Shown: piece by piece, positions 3,674-13,734 of the stretch
Position numbering within the stretch: the first letter of the stretch is position 1
Layout of the letters: the number at the start of each line of letters is the position of its first letter
Origin: Oscillospiraceae bacterium
Lineage (GTDB): Bacteria; Bacillota; Clostridia; Oscillospirales; Oscillospiraceae
Direction: 5' to 3'
NCBI GenBank assembly: GCA_017405865.1
Contig: JAFQZN010000018.1
Span: 1 to 48,469, forward strand
DNA length: 48,469 nucleotides
Notes under the pieces: generated by a model
Database searches by the model: none
Seen by the model: only the letters and a program-made list of their open reading frames with translations
Told to the model about the DNA's origin: nothing
Program-made: the position numbers and the translations under genes

Positions 3674-6600
3674 ATGGAATATTCAATTCTTGACAACATT
3701 ATCATAGGCAGAGTCGATCCGCACATCTATGCCTTTTCAACGAATACCGTCCCCAATTATCTCAAAGTCGGAGATACTTATCGTCCTGTCTCTGTTCGCC
3801 TGCAAGAATGGCGGGAGCATTTCCCGGATCTGCAAAAAGAATACGAAGGAATCGCAAAAGCTGATAACAACATATACTTCCGCGATTATGCCGTGCATTA
3901 TTTTCTCGAGCAAGATCGGAGAAAGATTCGTCTGCAACAAGCAGAGTTGCGCCCCGGTGTTTACTATTCCAAAGAGTTTTTCAAAGAAACAACGGCACAG
4001 GACGTTATTGATGCAGTTGACGACATAGTGCGTGATTACAATGAAAAGGGCGGAAAATATCAGTTTTATGACGCAGAAACGCGCCTGCCCGAAGCGCACA
4101 TATACGCCAGAACAGAATCATTCGAGCCGCGTCCGAATCAAGCGGCGACAATCCGGCAGTTCAAAGAGGCCGTGGCTTCCGGAAGAACAAATCTTCTGAT
4201 GTATGCGGTAATGCGTTTCGGCAAGTCTTTTACATCGATGTGTTGTGCGCTCGAAATGGACGCCGAAATTGTCACGGTCGTGTCCGCAAAAGCTGACGTA
4301 AAAGAAGAATGGAAAAAGACGGTTGAAAGCCATACCAAATTTGCTGACTACGCCTTTCTTACTGCAGATAATCTTGCTGCCGACCAGAGAGCTATTCGCA
4401 AAATCGTAGACGGCGGAAAGAAAGTCGTCGTTTTCTTGACCCTCCAGGACTTGCGGGGCGAAACGATCAAAGACAAACACAGAGAAGTGTTTGGCAATCA
4501 GATTGACTTGCTTATCGTAGACGAGACTCATTTTGGTGCGCGTGCTGAAAAGTACGGGCAGGTTCTGCGCGCGAACGGGTACGAAAAAGACGTCAAAAAC
4601 AAGATCGATACAGAAGAAGACTACGTCGAATCATCAGACGCGGACGAGCAGATCAAGGTGCTTGACGCGCGCATAAAACTGCACCTTTCCGGCACGCCTT
4701 ATCGCATCCTGATGGGAAGTGAATTCTCAAAGGACGACATTATTGCATTTTATCAGTTCACGGATATCGTAAAAGACCAGGAAAAATGGATCAAGGAAAA
4801 CAATGAGGCCGACGAGCCGGAAGAGGAATGGAATAACCCATACTATGGTTTTCCACAGATGGTTCGCTTTGCGTTCAATCCGAACGAGTCGTCCCGCCGA
4901 CGCCTCAAAGAGTTGCGCGAAAGCGGCATTTCCTACGCTTTTTCTGCCCTTTTAAAGCCTCAGTCGGTCAAAAAGTCGGTCGACGGAAAACACAAGAAGT
5001 TCATATTTGAGCAGGAGATCCTGGATCTGCTGGAAGTCATTGACGGCAGCAAAGATGACACAGAACTGCTCGGATTCTTGGATTATGAACGTATCAAGTC
5101 GGGCAATATGTGCCGCCATATCGTTATGGTTCTGCCCTATTGCGCTTCCTGCGATGCAATGGAAGAACTGATCCGCGCGAATTCGAACAGATTCAGAAAT
5201 CTCAACGGGTACGAGATTATCAACATTTCCGGCGTTGATCGGCAAAAGAATTATCGGTCTTCCAACGATATCAAAGTTAAAATACGCCAATGTGAGGCGG
5301 AAGGGAAGAAAACCTTCACTCTCACTGTAAACCGTATGCTGACCGGCAGCACGGTGGAGGAATGGGATACTATGCTCTTTTTGAAGGATACTGCTTCACC
5401 GCAGGAATACGATCAGGCGGTATTCCGTTTGCAGAATCAGCTTGTCAAGAAATATGTGGACAAGCAGGGTCATGTGATCAAGTATAATATGAAGCCGCAG
5501 ACGCTTCTCGTAGACTTCCTGCCGGACAGAATGTTCCGCATGCAGGAACAGAAGTCGCAAATCTACAATGTGAACGTGGAAGAGGCCGGTAACAGCCGCC
5601 TGGAAGACCGTATCCGCGAGGAACTTCGTGTATCCCCGATCATCGTTATGAACAGCGATAAAATGGAGCAGGTGCAGGCATCCGATATCCTCCACGCAGT
5701 CAGCGAATATTCCAAGACGCGCGGTGTGGCAGAAGAGACGGCAGAGATTCCTGTTGATTTGTCTCTTATGGACATTGCTGCGATCCGGGATGCTATTGAG
5801 CAGGAAAATGAGCTCGGTTCGAAAGCGGGCTTCTCCGCCAAGGCCCATGAGGGAGAGGGTGAAGGCAGCGACCTGGATACGCCGGAGGATGACGCTGGCA
5901 GCGATACGGGCGCTGGGAGCGGAGACGGCCATGGAGATGGCCAAGGCTCCGGTGGAGAGAATGGCGCTGAACAGAGCGAAAGCAAAAAAGATCCCATCAA
6001 GCAGTTCCGGTCATATTATGCGCGTATCCTGTTCTTTGCGTTCCTGACGCGGGATACACTGATTTCTCTCGAAGAGATTATCGCGAAAATGGATGCGCCG
6101 GAAAATGCCAGAATCGCTCGGAACATCGGCATTTCCAGACCCATTTTGGAAGCCATTCAGGGCAATATCAACAAGTTCATCTTGCGGGATTTGGACTATA
6201 AAATTCACAATCTGAACAAGCTCTCCCATGATGATACTGTTGACCCCATTGAACGGGCGTCTGTGGCAGTTCGCAAATTCGGCAAGCTGGGCGAATCGGA
6301 GGTCATCACCCCAAAGAATATCTGCGAGGATATGATCGCGCTGATCCCCGATGAGGGTTTTGCCAATGCGTTGCACAACGGGCACAAGGTTCTTGATATT
6401 GCCGGAAAGGCAGGCGAATTTGCCCTTGCTGTATATGAACGGTTGAAGAGGCTGGGATTTGATGATGCAGCCATTCGAAATTCCATATGCACAATCCCAA
6501 CGTCCGGCATCACCTATGAATTCACCCGTATGGTATACGAGATTCTCGACCTGAATGTTGCCTGCCTTGCGGACAAGTTTACCGCCTATGATCTGCTGGA

Positions 6601-7714
6601 AATGAAGAACGCCAGCGGGAAAATCGACTATGAAAAGATAGCGGCGCTGCTGACGCAGGCAAAGCCGTTCAACACGGTCACTCTGCACGATACGGTTGCG
6701 GAAGGAGATGAGAAAGTGAAATTTGATGTTGTAGTGGGCAATCCGCCCTATCAGATCAGCGATGGTGGCGCACAGGCAAGCGCAAAGCCAATCTATAACA
6801 ATTTTGTTGCTGTGGCAAAAGAACTGGCACCAGCATATATGACAATCATTATGCCTACACGCTGGTATGCAGGAGGCAAGGGGCTTGATGACTTCCGAAA
6901 CGCGATGCTTGAAGATGCCACGATCCAAGAGCTTCACGATTTCCTTCATCCGGAAGAAGTGTTCCCCGGGACTAACAATCGCGGCGGAATCTGTTATCTG
7001 ATGTGGAATGCTCAACATGATAACAGACGAAACCCTGTTACCATCACTACGCACGAAGGTGAGGGGCGCACTTCTGTTTCACATCGCAATCTGAGATTCA
7101 GAGATATGGATATATTCGTGCGGTATAGTAAAGCAATTGAGATTGTAAGCAAGGTTGTTCCCGAAGGCACAGATACAATAAGCAATTATGTTTCGGCAGC
7201 AAAAGCATTTGGATATAGAACATTCTTTATTAACGATCCAAACTTCAGGGAAAGCCCGACGGGGCTATCATCTCCAGTAAAGTGCTATGGCCGCGCTGGT
7301 AGAGTGGGATATGTCGAAAAAGACGAAGTCCCAAGCCATACAGATTGGATTTGTCGATGGAAGGTATATGTTCCTGAATCCAATAACATCGGCACAGAGC
7401 TAAATGATGATAATCAAAACGCATTCGTTGGCGAGCCGGAAACAATTTGCACTGAGACATTTTTGGTAATCGGCGCGGAATTGGAGTTGAACGAAGCAAG
7501 TGCGATTAATCTGTCAAACTATCTCAAAACAAGATTCGCACGTTTCCTTTTAAGCCTTGCAAAGATTAGTCAGCATGGAACGGCCAAAACATATCGCTTT
7601 GTTCCCCTCCAAGTTTTCTCAAGACCGTGGACGGACGAAGAACTGTATGCGAAGTATAATCTGACCGCTGACGAGATCGCTTTTATCGAAGCAACAATAA
7701 AGCCGATGGAGTAA
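3674..7714 (+). CDS. Single-chain restriction-modification enzyme: GIY-YIG nuclease, SF2 helicase, Eco57I-type N6-adenine methyltransferase
   Basis: A 1346-residue multidomain protein. Residues ~15-110 look like a GIY-YIG/T5orf172 nuclease (HIYAF...YLKVGDT...VRLQEW). An SF2 helicase/translocase follows: a Walker A-like MRFGKS (180-185), box II DETH (283-286), motif III SGTP (339-342) and a motif VI region with QAVFRLQNQ. A Gly/Asp/Glu-rich linker covers ~715-770. The methyltransferase has a TPKNICEDM block, a SAM-motif I-like DIAGKAGEF (from 908) and catalytic NPPY (1023-1026). The C-terminal ~300 residues are probably target recognition and end LTADEIAFIEATIKPME, a tail I know from Eco57I-like methylases. 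Cutting, translocation and methylation in one chain resemble type ISP/IIG logic, but with GIY-YIG in place of the usual PD-(D/E)XK nuclease. Intact frame; Shine-Dalgarno AGGACGG. Confidence 0.85.
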   Translation: MEYSILDNIIIGRVDPHIYAFSTNTVPNYLKVGDTYRPVSVRLQEWREHFPDLQKEYEGIAKADNNIYFRDYAVHYFLEQDRRKIRLQQAELRPGVYYSKEFFKETTAQDVIDAVDDIVRDYNEKGGKYQFYDAETRLPEAHIYARTESFEPRPNQAATIRQFKEAVASGRTNLLMYAVMRFGKSFTSMCCALEMDAEIVTVVSAKADVKEEWKKTVESHTKFADYAFLTADNLAADQRAIRKIVDGGKKVVVFLTLQDLRGETIKDKHREVFGNQIDLLIVDETHFGARAEKYGQVLRANGYEKDVKNKIDTEEDYVESSDADEQIKVLDARIKLHLSGTPYRILMGSEFSKDDIIAFYQFTDIVKDQEKWIKENNEADEPEEEWNNPYYGFPQMVRFAFNPNESSRRRLKELRESGISYAFSALLKPQSVKKSVDGKHKKFIFEQEILDLLEVIDGSKDDTELLGFLDYERIKSGNMCRHIVMVLPYCASCDAMEELIRANSNRFRNLNGYEIINISGVDRQKNYRSSNDIKVKIRQCEAEGKKTFTLTVNRMLTGSTVEEWDTMLFLKDTASPQEYDQAVFRLQNQLVKKYVDKQGHVIKYNMKPQTLLVDFLPDRMFRMQEQKSQIYNVNVEEAGNSRLEDRIREELRVSPIIVMNSDKMEQVQASDILHAVSEYSKTRGVAEETAEIPVDLSLMDIAAIRDAIEQENELGSKAGFSAKAHEGEGEGSDLDTPEDDAGSDTGAGSGDGHGDGQGSGGENGAEQSESKKDPIKQFRSYYARILFFAFLTRDTLISLEEIIAKMDAPENARIARNIGISRPILEAIQGNINKFILRDLDYKIHNLNKLSHDDTVDPIERASVAVRKFGKLGESEVITPKNICEDMIALIPDEGFANALHNGHKVLDIAGKAGEFALAVYERLKRLGFDDAAIRNSICTIPTSGITYEFTRMVYEILDLNVACLADKFTAYDLLEMKNASGKIDYEKIAALLTQAKPFNTVTLHDTVAEGDEKVKFDVVVGNPPYQISDGGAQASAKPIYNNFVAVAKELAPAYMTIIMPTRWYAGGKGLDDFRNAMLEDATIQELHDFLHPEEVFPGTNNRGGICYLMWNAQHDNRRNPVTITTHEGEGRTSVSHRNLRFRDMDIFVRYSKAIEIVSKVVPEGTDTISNYVSAAKAFGYRTFFINDPNFRESPTGLSSPVKCYGRAGRVGYVEKDEVPSHTDWICRWKVYVPESNNIGTELNDDNQNAFVGEPETICTETFLVIGAELELNEASAINLSNYLKTRFARFLLSLAKISQHGTAKTYRFVPLQVFSRPWTDEELYAKYNLTADEIAFIEATIKPME

Positions 7715-7720
7715 AAGGAA

Positions 7721-8059
7721 ATGAATGATTACCTGAACACATTTGAACAGTATAAAGACATCAAGGAAATCGCCGATCTGATCGACGAAGTTAGAAAGCT
7801 GCGGGAATACTATTGCACGCAGCAATTTGACAGGATGCAGCAGCTCATTAACGAGCTAACCGGCAAATACTTTGTCGAAACGCTCACTTGGAACGCAACC
7901 CATCCCGCAATGCCCATTACTGTACAGCAGGCATATTTGAATGCCGAAACCTTTCTGCGCCTGAAAGGGATCTCCATTTTGCTTCAAAAGGGCATAAAAC
8001 CGCAGGTACAGTTATCGGCTGAAGAAGCAGCCTTTATTGAATCCACCATCATGCCGTAG
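7721..8059 (+). CDS. Small protein sharing the C-terminal tail of the methylase
   Basis: A 112-residue protein starting 6 nt after the methylase stop. Its last residues, LSAEEAAFIESTIMP, closely mirror the methylase tail LTADEIAFIEATIKP, so the two probably share a short structural element. The N-terminal half (YKDIKEIADLIDEVRKLREYY) is predicted helical. It could be a decoy, a specificity modulator or a duplicated 3' fragment of the methylase gene that gained its own start. The Shine-Dalgarno AAAAGGAA abuts the ATG, so translation probably depends on coupling from upstream. I do not recognise a named family. Confidence 0.6.
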   Translation: MNDYLNTFEQYKDIKEIADLIDEVRKLREYYCTQQFDRMQQLINELTGKYFVETLTWNATHPAMPITVQQAYLNAETFLRLKGISILLQKGIKPQVQLSAEEAAFIESTIMP

Positions 8060-8071
8060 GAGTAACTGTTT

Positions 8072-8923
8072 ATGGATAGCCACGAATGTGATGGAAGCAC
8101 AATCCGCCTACTGAATCAGCAGATGATAGCTCAAGACAAAGAGTGCCAAAAGACGATAGCGGAAATGCGTGCTGTTGAAAAGTTTTTGAGCGATTTTGGC
8201 TTTCTGTCTTTTGGCCGTGATTTTGTCATTTGTGGGAGACATACGTTTTCTCTGCAAATGATCTCAACTGCCTTTGAACTCACGGCGGGCAGCATAATCT
8301 CCTGCTGTGAATCTGGCTGCATGGCGGACGCCTACTCATTGCTGCGAAAGTATCGAGATGATTTGTTTTTCTATCTGTACGTTGTGGTTTATGATTCTTG
8401 CAATAAGTTAGATAACAAATCGCCGGCAGTTACACAAATGGAAACTAATATTGAGCGGTGGATCAATAATGACCTTGATGATTTATATATCGGGACGGTT
8501 CTGCAGGCTATCGGCCAATCTCCAAAGGTAAGAGATGCTGTTCGGAAATATGACTTGAAGTCTTACTTTGATGATCTCGGAGTAAGACTAAATAACTACG
8601 TCCATAGCAATGGGGTATTTTTCTACAATCTTAATGTTAACACATTTCCAGGGAAAACCTTGCAAAAGCAGTTACTGTCATTACTGACAGATATGCGTTC
8701 TATTACGATTGCGTTTCTCTTTTTGCTCGCCCTCTGCTCGCCGTTATCAATCATGTCTACAGACTATGTAGACTATCTTGATTGCAATATGACCCCACCG
8801 GACGGCTCTCAATACTGGGTCGCGCCGTTCATTTCGGAGTTTTTCAAAAACAATCTGGATCTGATTGACGAAAGCTGTATGAAGTATTTGCAGGATAATA
8901 CACTTATGGAGTTTGAGTCGTAG
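8072..8923 (+). CDS. Unknown protein, HEPN-like features, last gene of the restriction operon
   Basis: A 283-residue, mostly helical protein with GGAG ribosome binding (taggagtaactgtttatg). The segment AYSLLRKYRDDLFFYLY (near residue 90) and later NNYVHSNG (near 175) match the pattern of HEPN-like/DUF5677-like proteins, in which an LLR...E/D helix is followed by a conserved (N/R)xxxH. A hydrophobic run with FLFLLALCSPLSIM (near 215) might touch a membrane or a protein core. It shares the operon and strand with the restriction genes, so an accessory or abortive role is plausible. No nuclease activity can be claimed, because the RxxxxH of toxin-type HEPN is not clearly present. Confidence 0.55.
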   Translation: MDSHECDGSTIRLLNQQMIAQDKECQKTIAEMRAVEKFLSDFGFLSFGRDFVICGRHTFSLQMISTAFELTAGSIISCCESGCMADAYSLLRKYRDDLFFYLYVVVYDSCNKLDNKSPAVTQMETNIERWINNDLDDLYIGTVLQAIGQSPKVRDAVRKYDLKSYFDDLGVRLNNYVHSNGVFFYNLNVNTFPGKTLQKQLLSLLTDMRSITIAFLFLLALCSPLSIMSTDYVDYLDCNMTPPDGSQYWVAPFISEFFKNNLDLIDESCMKYLQDNTLMEFES

Positions 8924-9139: not shown

Positions 9140-11203
9140 TCAGCATCCTTGCCTTGCAATATCCTGAAGTATTGTATTGATGGGGATGAATCCCTGCTTG
9201 GAGTTTGTCTGTGCCTCCTCCATAGATTCAACCCCTGCACAAATCATACCAACAATTTGATCGTCTTTATCCAATACAACACCGCCACTGGCACCATGGA
9301 AAACGGTACAAGCAACTTCAAAGAGGGGATGCCCAAAATGATGTGACTTTTTCCTGATGCATGTATGCAAAAATTCACAACTATCACCTTTACAATAATT
9401 GGGATATCCAATCAATTTTACAGAATCACCCAATCCCAACGTGTCGCTATCGCCGATCGGAAAATAATGCTCTGTCTCCTTGTTTATTTCGGCAAGTGCG
9501 TAGTCGTTTTCCTTGCTATGGCAAATAAGATTCATTGTTGTTCCAACCACCATAAAAGGCACGGGATATTTGTCGTATAAGCAGACGTTATAAAACTCGT
9601 TGTCCTCTATTACGTGGAAGCAAGACAGAAGCCCGTAATCATTAAGATAGAAGCCCGAGCCCTGCCTGGGATTTTCTTGCGATTGACTTTCAAGAACAAA
9701 TACTGAACTCCGTATCTTTTCCTCGAACAATTTTTGCGCTTTTTTCTCATGATTAGTTCTCTGCAGTACTCGTTCCATAAAAGAGGTCTCATTTATGTCT
9801 TCTGGGTCAGGAGTGGTTGCTGTCATATTATTTATCGCTCTTTTTATGGAATCCCTATAGCGCGAGTACAAATCGTAGATTTCGCTTAGGCTTTCTTCGT
9901 TCGAACCAGGCCAGTAATCAAGAATATCCATCAATTCTTGTGGGTGTTTTTTCAAAAAATCATATTTTGAGTCGCCTATCTCATGTTCAGTAAAGTATAG
10001 TAGCGCACCAACGCGCTGCTTTGTTTCATCATCCAGAGGATCATGCTCAATATCAAGCACGTAGGTATTATCGCTGTCTTGCAATCCCGCTGCAAATATT
10101 GCAAGCCGTCTATCAATGCACTGCGAACAACAGCCACAATGTGGAAACCATTCGTGGGTATCTCGAGTCGAACTGCAAGACACGGATAATTGAATCAACC
10201 CATTTTCTTGATGCTGATCAAACGTTTTAATGATATCCTCCTTTGTTTTTTTATAATATGGGGTCCGAATTTTAAATGATTTAGAAAAATTGGAATAGAA
10301 TTCTTGAAGCAAGCCCATTGCTTTCGGATGGGTTGTACGACTTGATCTCGCATTAATTACATCAGTCTGTTTTGAGAGATTTAGGCTTGTGACGCCATTT
10401 TCATAAATAAACATTTCGTCTTTTGAGTAGTAATTACATATGGCAAATGCAATAGACGAAAACAGAAACATTCTTGTGCGTTGCGTTTCATCACGGCTTT
10501 TCAGTCTTTTAAAGCGGCATTCAAAAGTATATTGCAAAATACGATTGGGATATTTTTCTTTCAATTTTGCAATTAGATTTCGTTGTGTCCGTATTGTTCG
10601 GTTATTTGACATATGATTAACTAAACACAACTGCCGATCCGGAAAAGAGTTTAGTCTGTCGATCGCTCCTGCTAATGAATCTAACCCTCCAGAAAATAGC
10701 ATAACATCCATTTTATTTCCAAATTCAACGTTTAGTTCATTATTTGAAAACAGATCCATTTGATAATCTTCACTTTTCAACGGCTCGGCAGTAGCCTTTG
10801 AAAAGCGGAACTCAAACGATTTATCCCCTGTCATAAAGACTAATGCCGCTGCAAGCGCATTTGAAACATTTGAAGCTGCCCAAAAATCATAATCAAGAAC
10901 AGGCACTTCAAAAACCCAGTTGCGGCTCCAACCAGAATTACTCAAACTGGACCTTTCGCCACGGTTTGCACAACGGTCTGCGCAAAAAACATAGGCTGCA
11001 ATATGTAAAAGATCTATTATTCTGTCTGGCAATTCTTGCGGTGTATTAATGAACTTATCAAACCGCGTCGTGATATTCTCTATTACTTGATCGTAGTGAT
11101 GATTTGACAAATTAATTATTTCACTTGTACATTCATTCGAAATGCATGCTTCGCCACAATAGACATGTATAGTTTTGGAGCTGTTTGCTGATGCAGCTTT
11201 CAT
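9140..11203 (-). CDS. QueC-like (QatC/Cap9-like) enzyme fused to a trypsin-like serine protease
   Basis: A 687-residue fusion. Residues 1-~390 are QueC-like: AAYVFCADRCANRG (69-82) matches the N-terminal part of defence QueC-like proteins, the ATP-pyrophosphatase P-loop is SGGLDS (171-176), and zinc ligands are C343 plus C356-G-x-C359-x-x-C362 (HCGCCSQCIDRR), all expected for 7-cyano-7-deazaguanine synthase chemistry. Residues ~495-687 form a chymotrypsin-fold domain: GSGF (515-518), His530 (SCFH), Asp567 (ENDYAL) and Ser639 (GASGG) give a full triad. A charged helical linker joins them. No queuosine genes are nearby. QueC-like proteins of the Qat and type IV CBASS systems act in phage defence. 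The start overlaps the upstream stop by 4 nt (ATGA), implying tight coupling. AT-rich, hence probably acquired. The fusion is clear; substrate and role are inference. Confidence 0.85.
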   Translation of the reverse strand: MKAASANSSKTIHVYCGEACISNECTSEIINLSNHHYDQVIENITTRFDKFINTPQELPDRIIDLLHIAAYVFCADRCANRGERSSLSNSGWSRNWVFEVPVLDYDFWAASNVSNALAAALVFMTGDKSFEFRFSKATAEPLKSEDYQMDLFSNNELNVEFGNKMDVMLFSGGLDSLAGAIDRLNSFPDRQLCLVNHMSNNRTIRTQRNLIAKLKEKYPNRILQYTFECRFKRLKSRDETQRTRMFLFSSIAFAICNYYSKDEMFIYENGVTSLNLSKQTDVINARSSRTTHPKAMGLLQEFYSNFSKSFKIRTPYYKKTKEDIIKTFDQHQENGLIQLSVSCSSTRDTHEWFPHCGCCSQCIDRRLAIFAAGLQDSDNTYVLDIEHDPLDDETKQRVGALLYFTEHEIGDSKYDFLKKHPQELMDILDYWPGSNEESLSEIYDLYSRYRDSIKRAINNMTATTPDPEDINETSFMERVLQRTNHEKKAQKLFEEKIRSSVFVLESQSQENPRQGSGFYLNDYGLLSCFHVIEDNEFYNVCLYDKYPVPFMVVGTTMNLICHSKENDYALAEINKETEHYFPIGDSDTLGLGDSVKLIGYPNYCKGDSCEFLHTCIRKKSHHFGHPLFEVACTVFHGASGGVVLDKDDQIVGMICAGVESMEEAQTNSKQGFIPINTILQDIARQGC

Positions 11204-11970
11204 TGTTCAGCCCCCTCTCTGCGGAATTCTTCTTTAATCTTTTTGAATGTTACTGACAAGAAATCGATAATTTTCTTGTCGTTTGGTACTGCTTCTGAGG
11301 AATGCTTGTTATACCATCCGGCAGCAAAGGATTGCATTAACTTAGAGATTTCTTGTGAATGTGTAGCAATTGCTGCAGATTGCTGCTTAAGTGTATGATT
11401 AAAAGATATTAGTGTGGAATAATCTCGGATCTCGCTGGCTGCTATTCTTTCCAAATAGTAGTTTAGATTTCGTTCAGTAAACTCTGCAACAAATGAACGC
11501 GCCATTTCGCAGAACGCAGCACCCGAATCAATACCATTCCAAATGCATTCGCTATCAACACTATCAAAACTTAGTTGATTGGTTTCATGAACCTGTTGGT
11601 AAGTGATTATTGCTCTCATTAACGAGTCTTTTGCCAACTTTCCTGTTTCTAAAGAATCGCTTTCGCTTGATAAATATTGATTAACTCCTCGAAGTAGCGA
11701 GTACATCGAGAGTTCGCTACCGTTTTCAATTCCGATTACCTTTAGTTTCTCTGTATCATTAGAATAACGACAAAGTATAGTTAAAAACCGAACAGAAGCA
11801 ATTATTGACTTATCATATGGAAGTGAGTTGTACAAACCTCTTAGAGCATCCAAAGTGTCGCTAGCAACTTTGGCCACAGCAGCATCTTCTTCATTATATC
11901 CTTGCAATTGCGAAACTATCGCTCGCCATTGCTTTGTTTTTGGGATGAATCCTATCCTTTCGTGACCCAT
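11200..11970 (-). CDS. Met-Gly-starting partner of the QueC/protease fusion (QatB-like position)
   Basis: A 256-residue helical protein of unknown family, first gene of the two-gene unit. It begins MGHERIGFIPKTKQW; a Met-Gly start is notable because partners of QueC-like defence enzymes are thought to be modified at an N-terminal glycine. No transmembrane segment or catalytic motif stands out; the C-terminus (IDFLSVTFKKIKEEF) is charged and helical. The ribosome binding site is AAGGGGG about 11 nt upstream. It overlaps the fusion gene by 4 nt, so the two should be made in fixed ratio. By position it corresponds to QatB. It could be the target of the QueC-like domain, the substrate of the protease, or the phage sensor. 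These are hypotheses. Confidence 0.6.
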   Translation of the reverse strand: MGHERIGFIPKTKQWRAIVSQLQGYNEEDAAVAKVASDTLDALRGLYNSLPYDKSIIASVRFLTILCRYSNDTEKLKVIGIENGSELSMYSLLRGVNQYLSSESDSLETGKLAKDSLMRAIITYQQVHETNQLSFDSVDSECIWNGIDSGAAFCEMARSFVAEFTERNLNYYLERIAASEIRDYSTLISFNHTLKQQSAAIATHSQEISKLMQSFAAGWYNKHSSEAVPNDKKIIDFLSVTFKKIKEEFRREGAEQ

Positions 11971-12128
11971 ATATAAAGCATCCCCCTTCTTTTTCTTTGA
12001 AATACTTTAAAAATCACTGATAGCGTTTAGCTATCGCCTGTGCTTTTTTTGTAAATAGTCGGGCAATTGTTTTAACGCTCCTGTTGTTGCCAAGAACATC
12101 ACATCATAATCGGCAAATATGAGGCGTT
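11971..12128. promoter_or_regulatory. AT-rich upstream region of the QueC/protease unit, with short hairpin
   Basis: This gap should hold the promoter of the two-gene unit, but no strong -35/-10 pair is evident on the minus strand. A GATAGC/GCTATC inverted repeat (12019-12035) could be a small operator. No gene is seen. Confidence 0.35.
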
Positions 12129-13124
12129 CTATGCGTTGATTTCATCTTCCAATCCTGAAACTGCCTCCAGGATCGCGTCAAAATCCGGTTTTTCGCCGAA
12201 GATCATATTCTGCATATGCTCGTAATCGTCGCGCAGCTTCGGGACGTTGTGTTCCGGCGGCATCAAGCGCATCGTGCCGCGCTTCGCAAGATCGTACCGC
12301 GCCCACGGGCAGCGGTAGAACTTGTCCTTGAACGCGACGACGCGGGCGAGTAGGTCGGTGTCGGCAAGCGCACGGTCTTTGACCGGCGATTTCGCCATAC
12401 AGTACAGATCGTAATAGTGCCGCGAATACCGGCCGGGAAGGGCGCTGCCTTCGGCGCGGAATGCCTCGCGGTGCAGGATCGTGATCTTTTCCCAGAACGT
12501 GCGTTCCGGCAGGACCGTCAGAATATCCGTCGACGGCTGCTCAAACACGCGCCCGTAGTATTCGGCGGCGTAAGGCGTGATCGTCTGCTCCGCAGCGGGC
12601 GTCCATGCGGCGAGCGCGCCGATCTCCAGACGGATTTCCTGCAGGATCGCCGTGTCGGAAAAGCTGTTCGGGTAGGTGAACTTGACCGTCTGCCCGTCGT
12701 AGGAATCGATCTCGCACTTTACGGGCAGCGCCAGTTCCTCGGTCAGATCCTTCTTGACGGCAGGCAGAAACACGTCCCGGAGGAACGCTGCCGCGCGCTC
12801 GTTCGCCTCTTTGTTGAAAGCGTCCTGCCTGGTATTGCTGCGCTGTTCCCACGGCTCGTCGATCCCGTAGCCGAGGACGCGCCAGTCGAGGATCAGGTCG
12901 ATGTCCTCCGAAAAGCGTTTGATCAGATCGTACGCTTTGGACAGGCTCGTGCCGCCCTTAAACGCCAGGCTGTCTTTCCAAGCACAGCGGTGGAAAAGAT
13001 AATCGAGCATATAACAGACCCAGAAGTCTTTTTCGATGACCGCTTCGCTGATGCCCATTTTGGCGGCAGTATTGCGGAAAAGCGCCTCGCGCTCTTTCGC
13101 TTCGATCACAGCTATCTTTCTCAT
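12129..13124 (-). CDS. abiEii: AbiEii-type nucleotidyltransferase toxin
   Basis: A 331-residue AbiEii/AbiGii-family protein. The nucleotidyltransferase signature is GGTS (57-60) and FSEDIDL (71-77), with Asp74/Asp76 as metal ligands. Toxins of this family (type IV AbiE systems; MenT relatives) add nucleotides to tRNA 3' ends and stop growth. The later conserved RHYYDLYCM block (in the second half) is also present. The ATG at 13124 is chosen because AGGTGA sits 4 nt upstream, even though the frame runs open further. It follows the antitoxin gene by only 4 nt, in the standard order. GC is higher than in the QueC unit, so it probably arrived separately. Both enzymatic motifs look intact. Confidence 0.9.
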   Translation of the reverse strand: MRKIAVIEAKEREALFRNTAAKMGISEAVIEKDFWVCYMLDYLFHRCAWKDSLAFKGGTSLSKAYDLIKRFSEDIDLILDWRVLGYGIDEPWEQRSNTRQDAFNKEANERAAAFLRDVFLPAVKKDLTEELALPVKCEIDSYDGQTVKFTYPNSFSDTAILQEIRLEIGALAAWTPAAEQTITPYAAEYYGRVFEQPSTDILTVLPERTFWEKITILHREAFRAEGSALPGRYSRHYYDLYCMAKSPVKDRALADTDLLARVVAFKDKFYRCPWARYDLAKRGTMRLMPPEHNVPKLRDDYEHMQNMIFGEKPDFDAILEAVSGLEDEINA

Positions 13125-13128
13125 TCTA

Positions 13129-13734
13129 TCACCTGCAAATCGTCTTGATGGTTTCGTAGATCCACGAAGTCGCATACTGCGCTTCCGTCAGCATTGCTTT
13201 TCGTTCATCCGGCGTGGTCTCGGCTTTGATCCGATTGATTGTTTTTCTCCGGACGCCGTCTTTGCCAAGCGTTTTCAACGCCTGAATGACCAGCGCCGTC
13301 TTCGGCGAAATCTTTGATATCTCCTTATTGGTCGTGTGTTTATACCGAATTGTCGTACGGTCAAAGGAGTACGCTTTATAGGGTCCGTCGCTAACGTAAG
13401 ACCAGACGACGGGGACCTGCGTCGACAGGCCGAGAAGATTCAGCGCCGTGTCGCCGCAGGGGATAATGCTCCATCCGTAATTGCGGGCGATTGCGTTGGC
13501 GACCGCATCCGGCGCAGGCGCAATATACTCGTCAAGCAGCTTGCTGTATTCGGGCTTATAATACACGCCGCGCATGACGCATTTGACGATGTTGTTTTCC
13601 GACAAGCGCACCAGATATTCACTGACTCGTTTTGTTTCAGTGATGTCCGCAAAGTCAGAGGCAACAAAAACAGAGCCGACTTTCGCGGCTTCGATTCTGT
13701 CCCGCATTTCCTGCATATAATTTCGTCTGTCCAT
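13129..13734 (-). CDS. abiEi: AbiEi-like antitoxin / transcriptional repressor (DUF6088 type)
   Basis: A 201-residue protein with an N-terminal winged-helix-like region (VFVASDFADITETKRVSEYLVRLSENNIV) and the C-terminal AbiEi domain (APDAVANAIARNYGWSIIPCGDTALNLLGLS). AbiEi proteins are type IV antitoxins that do not bind the toxin directly and repress their own promoter. The inverted repeat flanking the -10 of this operon fits that. The toxin gene follows after 4 nt. DUF6088 is the family name I would expect from a domain search. Confidence 0.85.
   Translation of the reverse strand: MDRRNYMQEMRDRIEAAKVGSVFVASDFADITETKRVSEYLVRLSENNIVKCVMRGVYYKPEYSKLLDEYIAPAPDAVANAIARNYGWSIIPCGDTALNLLGLSTQVPVVWSYVSDGPYKAYSFDRTTIRYKHTTNKEISKISPKTALVIQALKTLGKDGVRRKTINRIKAETTPDERKAMLTEAQYATSWIYETIKTICR

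Follow-up and report, generated by a model that had tools for sequence, protein, structure and literature searches.

Enzymes of the QueC type act in bacterial immunity in type IV CBASS, where Cap9 is linked to deazaguanylation (PMC11996544), and in the qatABCD system, as QatC. According to PMC13279940, which is also the source of the QatC numbering, a QatC loop that bears the two invariant threonines of the enzyme packs on QatB, the QatB tail is unstructured, its Gly2 is essential and its residues 16-22, with Pro16 and Trp18, are required, and QatBC alone suffices for defence against some phages. The same source reports that the QatC reaction has not been reconstituted and that the nucleobase-recognition residues of QatC differ from those of Cap9, and the discoverers describe the reaction and the means of stopping phage as an open question. 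An E. coli queC mutant is reported not to have regained queuosine with a QatC (PMC13329287). Trypsin-like modules have been acquired by Hachiman, AVAST, Lamassu and DRT systems, and in Hachiman and AVAST they cut a gated nuclease of the metallo-beta-lactamase (MBL) type (PMC12799240). Here, a two-gene locus was analysed in the 48,469-nucleotide contig JAFQZN010000018.1 of an Oscillospiraceae bacterium (GenBank assembly GCA_017405865.1), the whole of which is called the window. The locus combines a QatB-like partner gene with a gene for a QatC-like enzyme fused to a trypsin-like protease and is probably an anti-phage system; it is likely to be a Qat-type immune core that acts through an effector joined to the QatC-like enzyme and not through a separate QatA and QatD. 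The features of the two genes are listed below.

9140..11203, minus strand: QatC-like enzyme fused to a trypsin-like protease, 687 aa (open frame; Pfam, PADLOC, NCBIfam and PDB matches)
9824..11203, minus strand: QatC-like part, residues 1-460 (hhalign against 12 QatCs, E 4.1e-52, residues 48-460 aligned; structure model mostly confident)
10676..10693, minus strand: SGGLDS ATP-pyrophosphatase loop, residues 171-176 (SGGxDS in 36 of 36 fused proteins)
10325..10354, minus strand: NARSSRTTHP, residues 284-293 (R286, R289, T290, H292 and P293 in 36 of 36)
10118..10177, minus strand: zinc site, C343, C356, C359 and C362 (36 of 36)
9158..9715, minus strand: trypsin-like putative effector, residues 497-682, with the triad H530, D567 and S639 (Pfam Trypsin_2; triad common to the L038 and L003 proteins described below)
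11200..11970, minus strand: QatB-like partner gene, 256 aa (predicted fold, weak profile match)
11926..11970, minus strand: conserved N-terminal tail of the partner, MGHERIGFIPKTKQW, residues 1-15 including Gly2 (conservation in relatives)
11200..11203, minus strand: ATGA stop/start overlap of the partner and fusion genes (sequence; 4-base overlap in 28 of 41 related loci)
11982..11986, minus strand: GGGGG, a possible ribosome-binding site 11 bases 5' of the partner ATG (sequence)

The locus resembles qatABCD (PMC13279940) in its two adjacent genes, in a partner that is helical and has a disordered tail and an N-terminal glycine, and in an enzyme that keeps the QatC motifs, the ATP loop, the zinc site and both extensions. 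It differs in having neither QatA nor QatD, in the fusion of the effector to the enzyme, in a partner whose first residues are MGHER (MGH[EV]R in relatives) where QatB has MGTS and which has almost no sequence in common with QatB, and in the separate branch that the fused enzymes form. Eight QatA and QatD queries (tblastn, E 1e-4) gave no match in the window or in any of 43 fused loci; in a control of 16 classical loci, five of them the source of queries, QatD was recovered in 16 and QatA in 12. With type IV CBASS the locus shares a QueC-type enzyme and a partner with an N-terminal glycine, the latter being a CBASS feature according to PMC13279940. Unlike Cap9, the window enzyme has QatC-type residues at the nucleobase-recognition positions, and no CD-NTase was found with Pfam, PADLOC or NCBIfam among the seven proteins around the fusion gene, the nearby AbiEii being a nucleotidyltransferase of another family. 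The Hachiman, AVAST, Lamassu and DRT cases likewise join a trypsin-like domain to an immune core gene, whereas in the window the core is QatC, the protease is C-terminal and no MBL pro-nuclease gene is adjacent.

The original prediction, made from the sequence alone, had called the QueC-protease fusion a candidate new defence architecture, and no title or abstract in the literature searched named a fusion of QatC to an effector. The main text of PMC12799240 contains no word starting with Que or Qat, and that of PMC13329287 contains none of the words protease, peptidase, trypsin or fused, using 'fusion' once, for GMP synthase. Among classical loci, the annotated qatC of Bradyrhizobium ottawaense (L081, 2821-4950) is 709 aa long, compared with a 467-aa QatC and a TatD protein in locus L082, and is possibly a QatC-QatD fusion.

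The placement of a single intact frame at 9140..11203 by the original prediction was correct, and the frame lies on the minus strand, where it is read from 11203 to 9140 as 687 codons with an ATG start and no internal stops; the plus strand across this interval is stop-rich. The predicted joining of a QueC-like enzyme to a trypsin-like protease was borne out by Pfam, in which both QueC (E 6.6e-7) and Trypsin_2 (E 9.6e-14) were above their cut-offs. The SGGLDS loop, the four zinc cysteines and the protease triad were all found at the positions given for them, the triad aligning with the same residues in L038 and L003. L038, which answers the suggestion that further fusions be sought, is a second intact fusion of 682 aa with the same domain order, from a Bacillota metagenome-assembled genome, and is 54% identical to the window protein. 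Because this independent intact fusion exists, the window fusion is neither a chance frame nor an assembly join.

By profile, motifs and PADLOC, the enzyme part is QatC-like, its catalysis being predicted. PADLOC QatC matched window residues 35-396 (E 9.8e-53), two PDB QatC sequences matched the window protein (E 6e-24 and 9e-24), and the NCBIfam QatC model gave 199 bits, but this is below its cut-off of 280. The hhalign comparison of 32 fused proteins with the 12 classical QatCs gave a probability of 100 over 380 columns, and its span indicates that the fused proteins retain the QatC extensions that flank the QueC core on either side. Across 36 fused proteins, S171, G172, G173, D175, S176, the four cysteines, R286, R289, T290, H292, P293, T320 and K321 are invariant. 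The NARSSRTTHP stretch corresponds to the end of the QatC loop that packs on QatB, by comparison with the QatC of PMC13279940, and position 288, which aligns with one of the two invariant threonines of QatC, is serine in 34 fused proteins and threonine in 2. In a tree of 48 QatC parts, all 36 fused proteins fell on one side of a branch with 100/100 support, and several classical rows were on long branches. The structure prediction proposed for both halves of the protein was confident across most of residues 11-480; the protease part was not confidently modelled because only two rows carry that module.

The upstream 256-aa gene, which the original prediction left undescribed, is by its modelled fold a QatB-like partner. 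It had no match in Pfam (E 1) or among PDB sequences (E 10) and no significant match in NCBIfam or PADLOC; the QatB profile matched it weakly over its full length. The model has a helical domain and a disordered N-terminal tail, with residues 1-10 below a pLDDT of 50. In the 36-row partner alignment, M1, G2, H3, R5, P10 and W15 are invariant. Since the first of the two seeds used for the partner genome scan (MGHER[IL]G[FI] and [MT]QSFAAGW) itself selects the N-terminus, conservation there was judged on the 27 rows selected by the second seed only: [MVL]GHxR is present in 25, and the N-terminus of the remaining two (L059 and L071) is not readable in that frame. In the 11 aligned classical QatBs, MGTS is invariant and is the sole invariant stretch. 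The partner alignment A4 omits L059, L070, L071, L072, L075 and L076. The QatB alignment omits L081 and L082, in which the annotated qatB starts elsewhere, and the start of L004 was set later than its longest frame; L081 was also omitted from the QatC set.

Single-sequence scans of genome and viral contigs with the 687-aa protein found no relative, but a partner profile did. Plasmid records held a single partner relative, on a Leptospira noguchii plasmid 5' of a 621-aa QatC-like protein annotated as hypothetical; another was found in genome G720, and both start with MGHER. A three-row partner profile picked out 40 loci among genome contigs and a single one among viral contigs, with titles that include Bacillota, Bacteroidales, Planctomycetota, Chloroflexi, Verrucomicrobia, Ignavibacteriae, Poribacteria and Omnitrophota. 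One or more QatC-like frames lie directly 3' of the partner in 40 of the 41 loci (34 alignable, 6 cut or broken), L076 having none. The partner is rare: it was found by sequence in 2 of 398 phylum genomes, the window's own included, and by profile in 1 of 394 order genomes, which is the window's own. No further full-length fusion was found in 391 class genomes, a viral-contig scan with the two protease fusions gave nothing beyond the L077 contig, and of 131 plasmid records matched by the fusion protein (tblastn) none covered 80% of the query. In phage records there were two matches to Listeria phages (E 5e-8), confined to the QatC part, and the PHROGs matches were to a QueC-like family (E 3.9e-15) and to two families resembling proteases. 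The partners closest to that of the window (71% identity) are L037 (526-2024) and L077 (6001-7562 of IMGVR_UViG_3300012973_000028), whose QatC matches end at residues 219 and 255, respectively; the L077 pair is on a contig of the viral collection. In G720 (L035, 4812-6685), the QatC-like gene is split into two frames, the second of which ends in a nuclease-like tail.

The set of 36 fused proteins comprises the 41 loci minus L037, L054, L056, L072, L075 and L077, in which the downstream frame is shorter than 450 aa (a cut or broken frame, or one at the end of a contig), and minus L076, in which it is unrelated, plus the window and L032. The tail that follows the QatC-like core varies among them. 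A nuclease group accounts for 28 of 36 (27 complete, L042 being cut at a contig end); all four of the 28 that were scanned match Pfam DpnII-MboI, and a D...ExK signature, sought with a lenient pattern, is present in all 27 complete tails. Two tails are TIR domains close to Thoeris ThsB (L055, E 4.8e-64; L074, E 9.2e-52), two are trypsin-like (the window and L038), three are others, and L059 stops before any effector. The ThsB-type TIR and the DpnII/MboI-type nuclease are thus fused in relatives at the place held by the protease in the window gene. Single-linkage BLAST placed the TIR tails and the nucleases together because of a linker that they share, and Pfam was used to split them instead. 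The three other tails are at L062 (6756-8726), L053 (2950-5034) and L071 (597-2318); one matches PADLOC PDC-M36A and appears nuclease-like, and two have no clear match. In an eight-row set including six nuclease rows (99/97), the two protease rows pair at 100/100. A single nuclease clade was not rejected by the approximately unbiased (AU) test (p 0.138), and therefore exchange of tails is claimed here and not its direction; a firm change from nuclease to protease was dropped on this result. Two separate TIR origins are not claimed, as the TIR rows sit apart but branch support there is low. These comparisons suggest that the same immune core is wired to an exchangeable effector. The window fusion is one member of a wider family.

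The protease end of PADLOC RT-Protease_XI matched window residues 475-682 (E 1.2e-32). Only the scores of this model were used, since it matched 246 of 249 phylum genomes through reverse transcriptases and HtrA-like proteases; the window scored 113 bits, and the other protease-region matches listed scored at most 79. The closest protease module found outside the fusion family was that of L003 (412-2106), a 564-aa reverse transcriptase-protease and the best other protease match in the 391 class genomes (E 8.9e-39, the next being 1.3e-12); the two modules are 40% identical, but the sensor part of L003 is a reverse transcriptase. The original prediction had offered the protease as an effector or a processing module, and the former is favoured here because relatives hold a nuclease or TIR domain at the same place.

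In the proposed mechanism, the partner would dock on the QatC part, with its disordered tail entering the ATP-pyrophosphatase pocket, and the QatC-like enzyme would act on partner Gly2. Infection may then alter the state of the tail or of the complex, so that the C-terminal effector is released or clustered, and the trypsin-like protease would cleave host or phage proteins and infection would be stopped. Besides the composition of the locus, the invariant QatC site, the glycine tail and the varied tails, its rarity, its low G+C, its defence neighbours, the published QatBC defence and Gly2 requirement (PMC13279940) and the published fusion of trypsin-like modules to other immune cores (PMC12799240) were counted as support. 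If the Qat-type reading is right, sensing and output are separable in a family whose members join one core to a nuclease, to a TIR domain or to a protease: with two proteins, activation could be followed through DNA cleavage, loss of NAD or proteolysis. A sensor class would also be added to the immune cores that borrow trypsin-like modules.

Other explanations of the fusion were weighed against this one. The protease could be an activator that cuts a separate pro-effector, as the Hachiman and AVAST modules cut a gated MBL-fold pro-nuclease; this mechanism is published for two immune systems, a nuclease-protease pair also occurs in Lamassu and DRT (PMC12799240), and the 40% identity to the module of a reverse transcriptase-protease agrees with it. 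It is nevertheless unlikely, because a search for HxHxDH-type patterns found no MBL-type match adjacent in the window and none in L038 or L036, the lone window match lying about 20 kb away in an implausible 177-aa frame rich in histidine and arginine, and because in the published cases the protease is N-terminal and the nuclease upstream, whereas here the protease is C-terminal and the upstream gene QatB-like. That the protease trims the partner or the fusion protein so as to switch the QatC part on or off would suit the gene order, in which the partner adjoins the protease, and the N-terminal, disordered partner tail; we regard this as quite improbable, since relatives have the same core with a nuclease or TIR domain in place of the protease, which makes the core independent of proteolysis. 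The partner's occurrence in a single order genome and the broken or cut state of some relatives (L054, L072, L037, L077 and G720) would fit a chance or decaying fusion without function, but neither gene is disrupted, no motif residue has been lost and the triad is retained in an independent intact fusion at 54% identity, and we give this explanation little credence.

The remaining alternative is that the protein makes queuosine or preQ0 and that its tail is incidental; it draws on the Pfam QueC match and the kept ATP loop and zinc site, and is extremely improbable. The window protein scored 19 bits with TIGR00364, whose cut-off is 150.3, neither a PTPS/QueD match nor a QueC above cut-off was present in the window's genome (92% complete), the QatC motifs are kept, and a QatC did not restore queuosine in the work cited above (PMC13329287); the original prediction had likewise set the protein apart from queuosine enzymes. 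PTPS/QueD and canonical QueC were sought in the hosts of 38 of the 40 loci from genome contigs, together with G000 and G720; of these 40 host genomes, 28 had PTPS/QueD and 18 had canonical QueC above cut-off. Enrichment of QueD in hosts was considered and dropped (28/40 against 9/14 control genomes). Among the 12 hosts that lack PTPS are the window's genome, G720 (99% complete) and the genome of L061 (a chromosome record of 3.18 Mb), and none of the 12 has QueC above cut-off, completeness figures being those for the window's genome and G720 only. The QatC-like gene of G720 is itself broken, and the L061 system is intact. Because 12 of 40 hosts have neither PTPS nor a QueC above cut-off, host-made CDG cannot be assumed as the ligand, and such hosts are a natural test of CDG in that role. 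A wider proposal, speculative and on balance doubtful, is an immune chassis spanning phyla: QatC would set the state of a single glycine at the tip of the QatB-like protein, that state would gate whichever effector the enzyme carries, and the conjugated group would be a metabolite other than host-made CDG, perhaps one specific to infection; if this were true, hosts without QueD and QueC, such as that of L061, would help to show the group conjugated by QatC.

Two neighbouring features provide the genomic context of the locus.

12129..13734, minus strand: AbiEi/AbiEii pair (PADLOC AbiEii E 2.5e-107, AbiEi E 6.7e-59)
3674..7714, plus strand: type IIG restriction-modification gene (PADLOC, 1533 bits)

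The AT-rich segment beside defence genes that had been predicted is upheld by these flanking genes and by a G+C content of 39% for the two-gene pair against 62% for 14764-48469. Between the type IIG and fusion genes, frames of 112 and 283 aa (7721-8923, plus strand) converge on the latter; neither had a significant family match in Pfam, PADLOC or NCBIfam, and the 283-aa gene (8072-8923) was rejected as a partner homologue, no homology being found. A scan of the 68 nearest of 127 neighbours at 37 other loci (raw counts; PADLOC, E <=1e-10) gave, among the matches listed (25 of 207 families), type IIG, HmaC and type I restriction-modification genes (2 members each) and PglZ, HEC-05, DrmD and a TIR effector (1 each). 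At L082 (6341-7206), a classical Qat locus of Bradyrhizobium japonicum is followed by a DUF6088/AbiEii pair, and the window pair also adjoins one.
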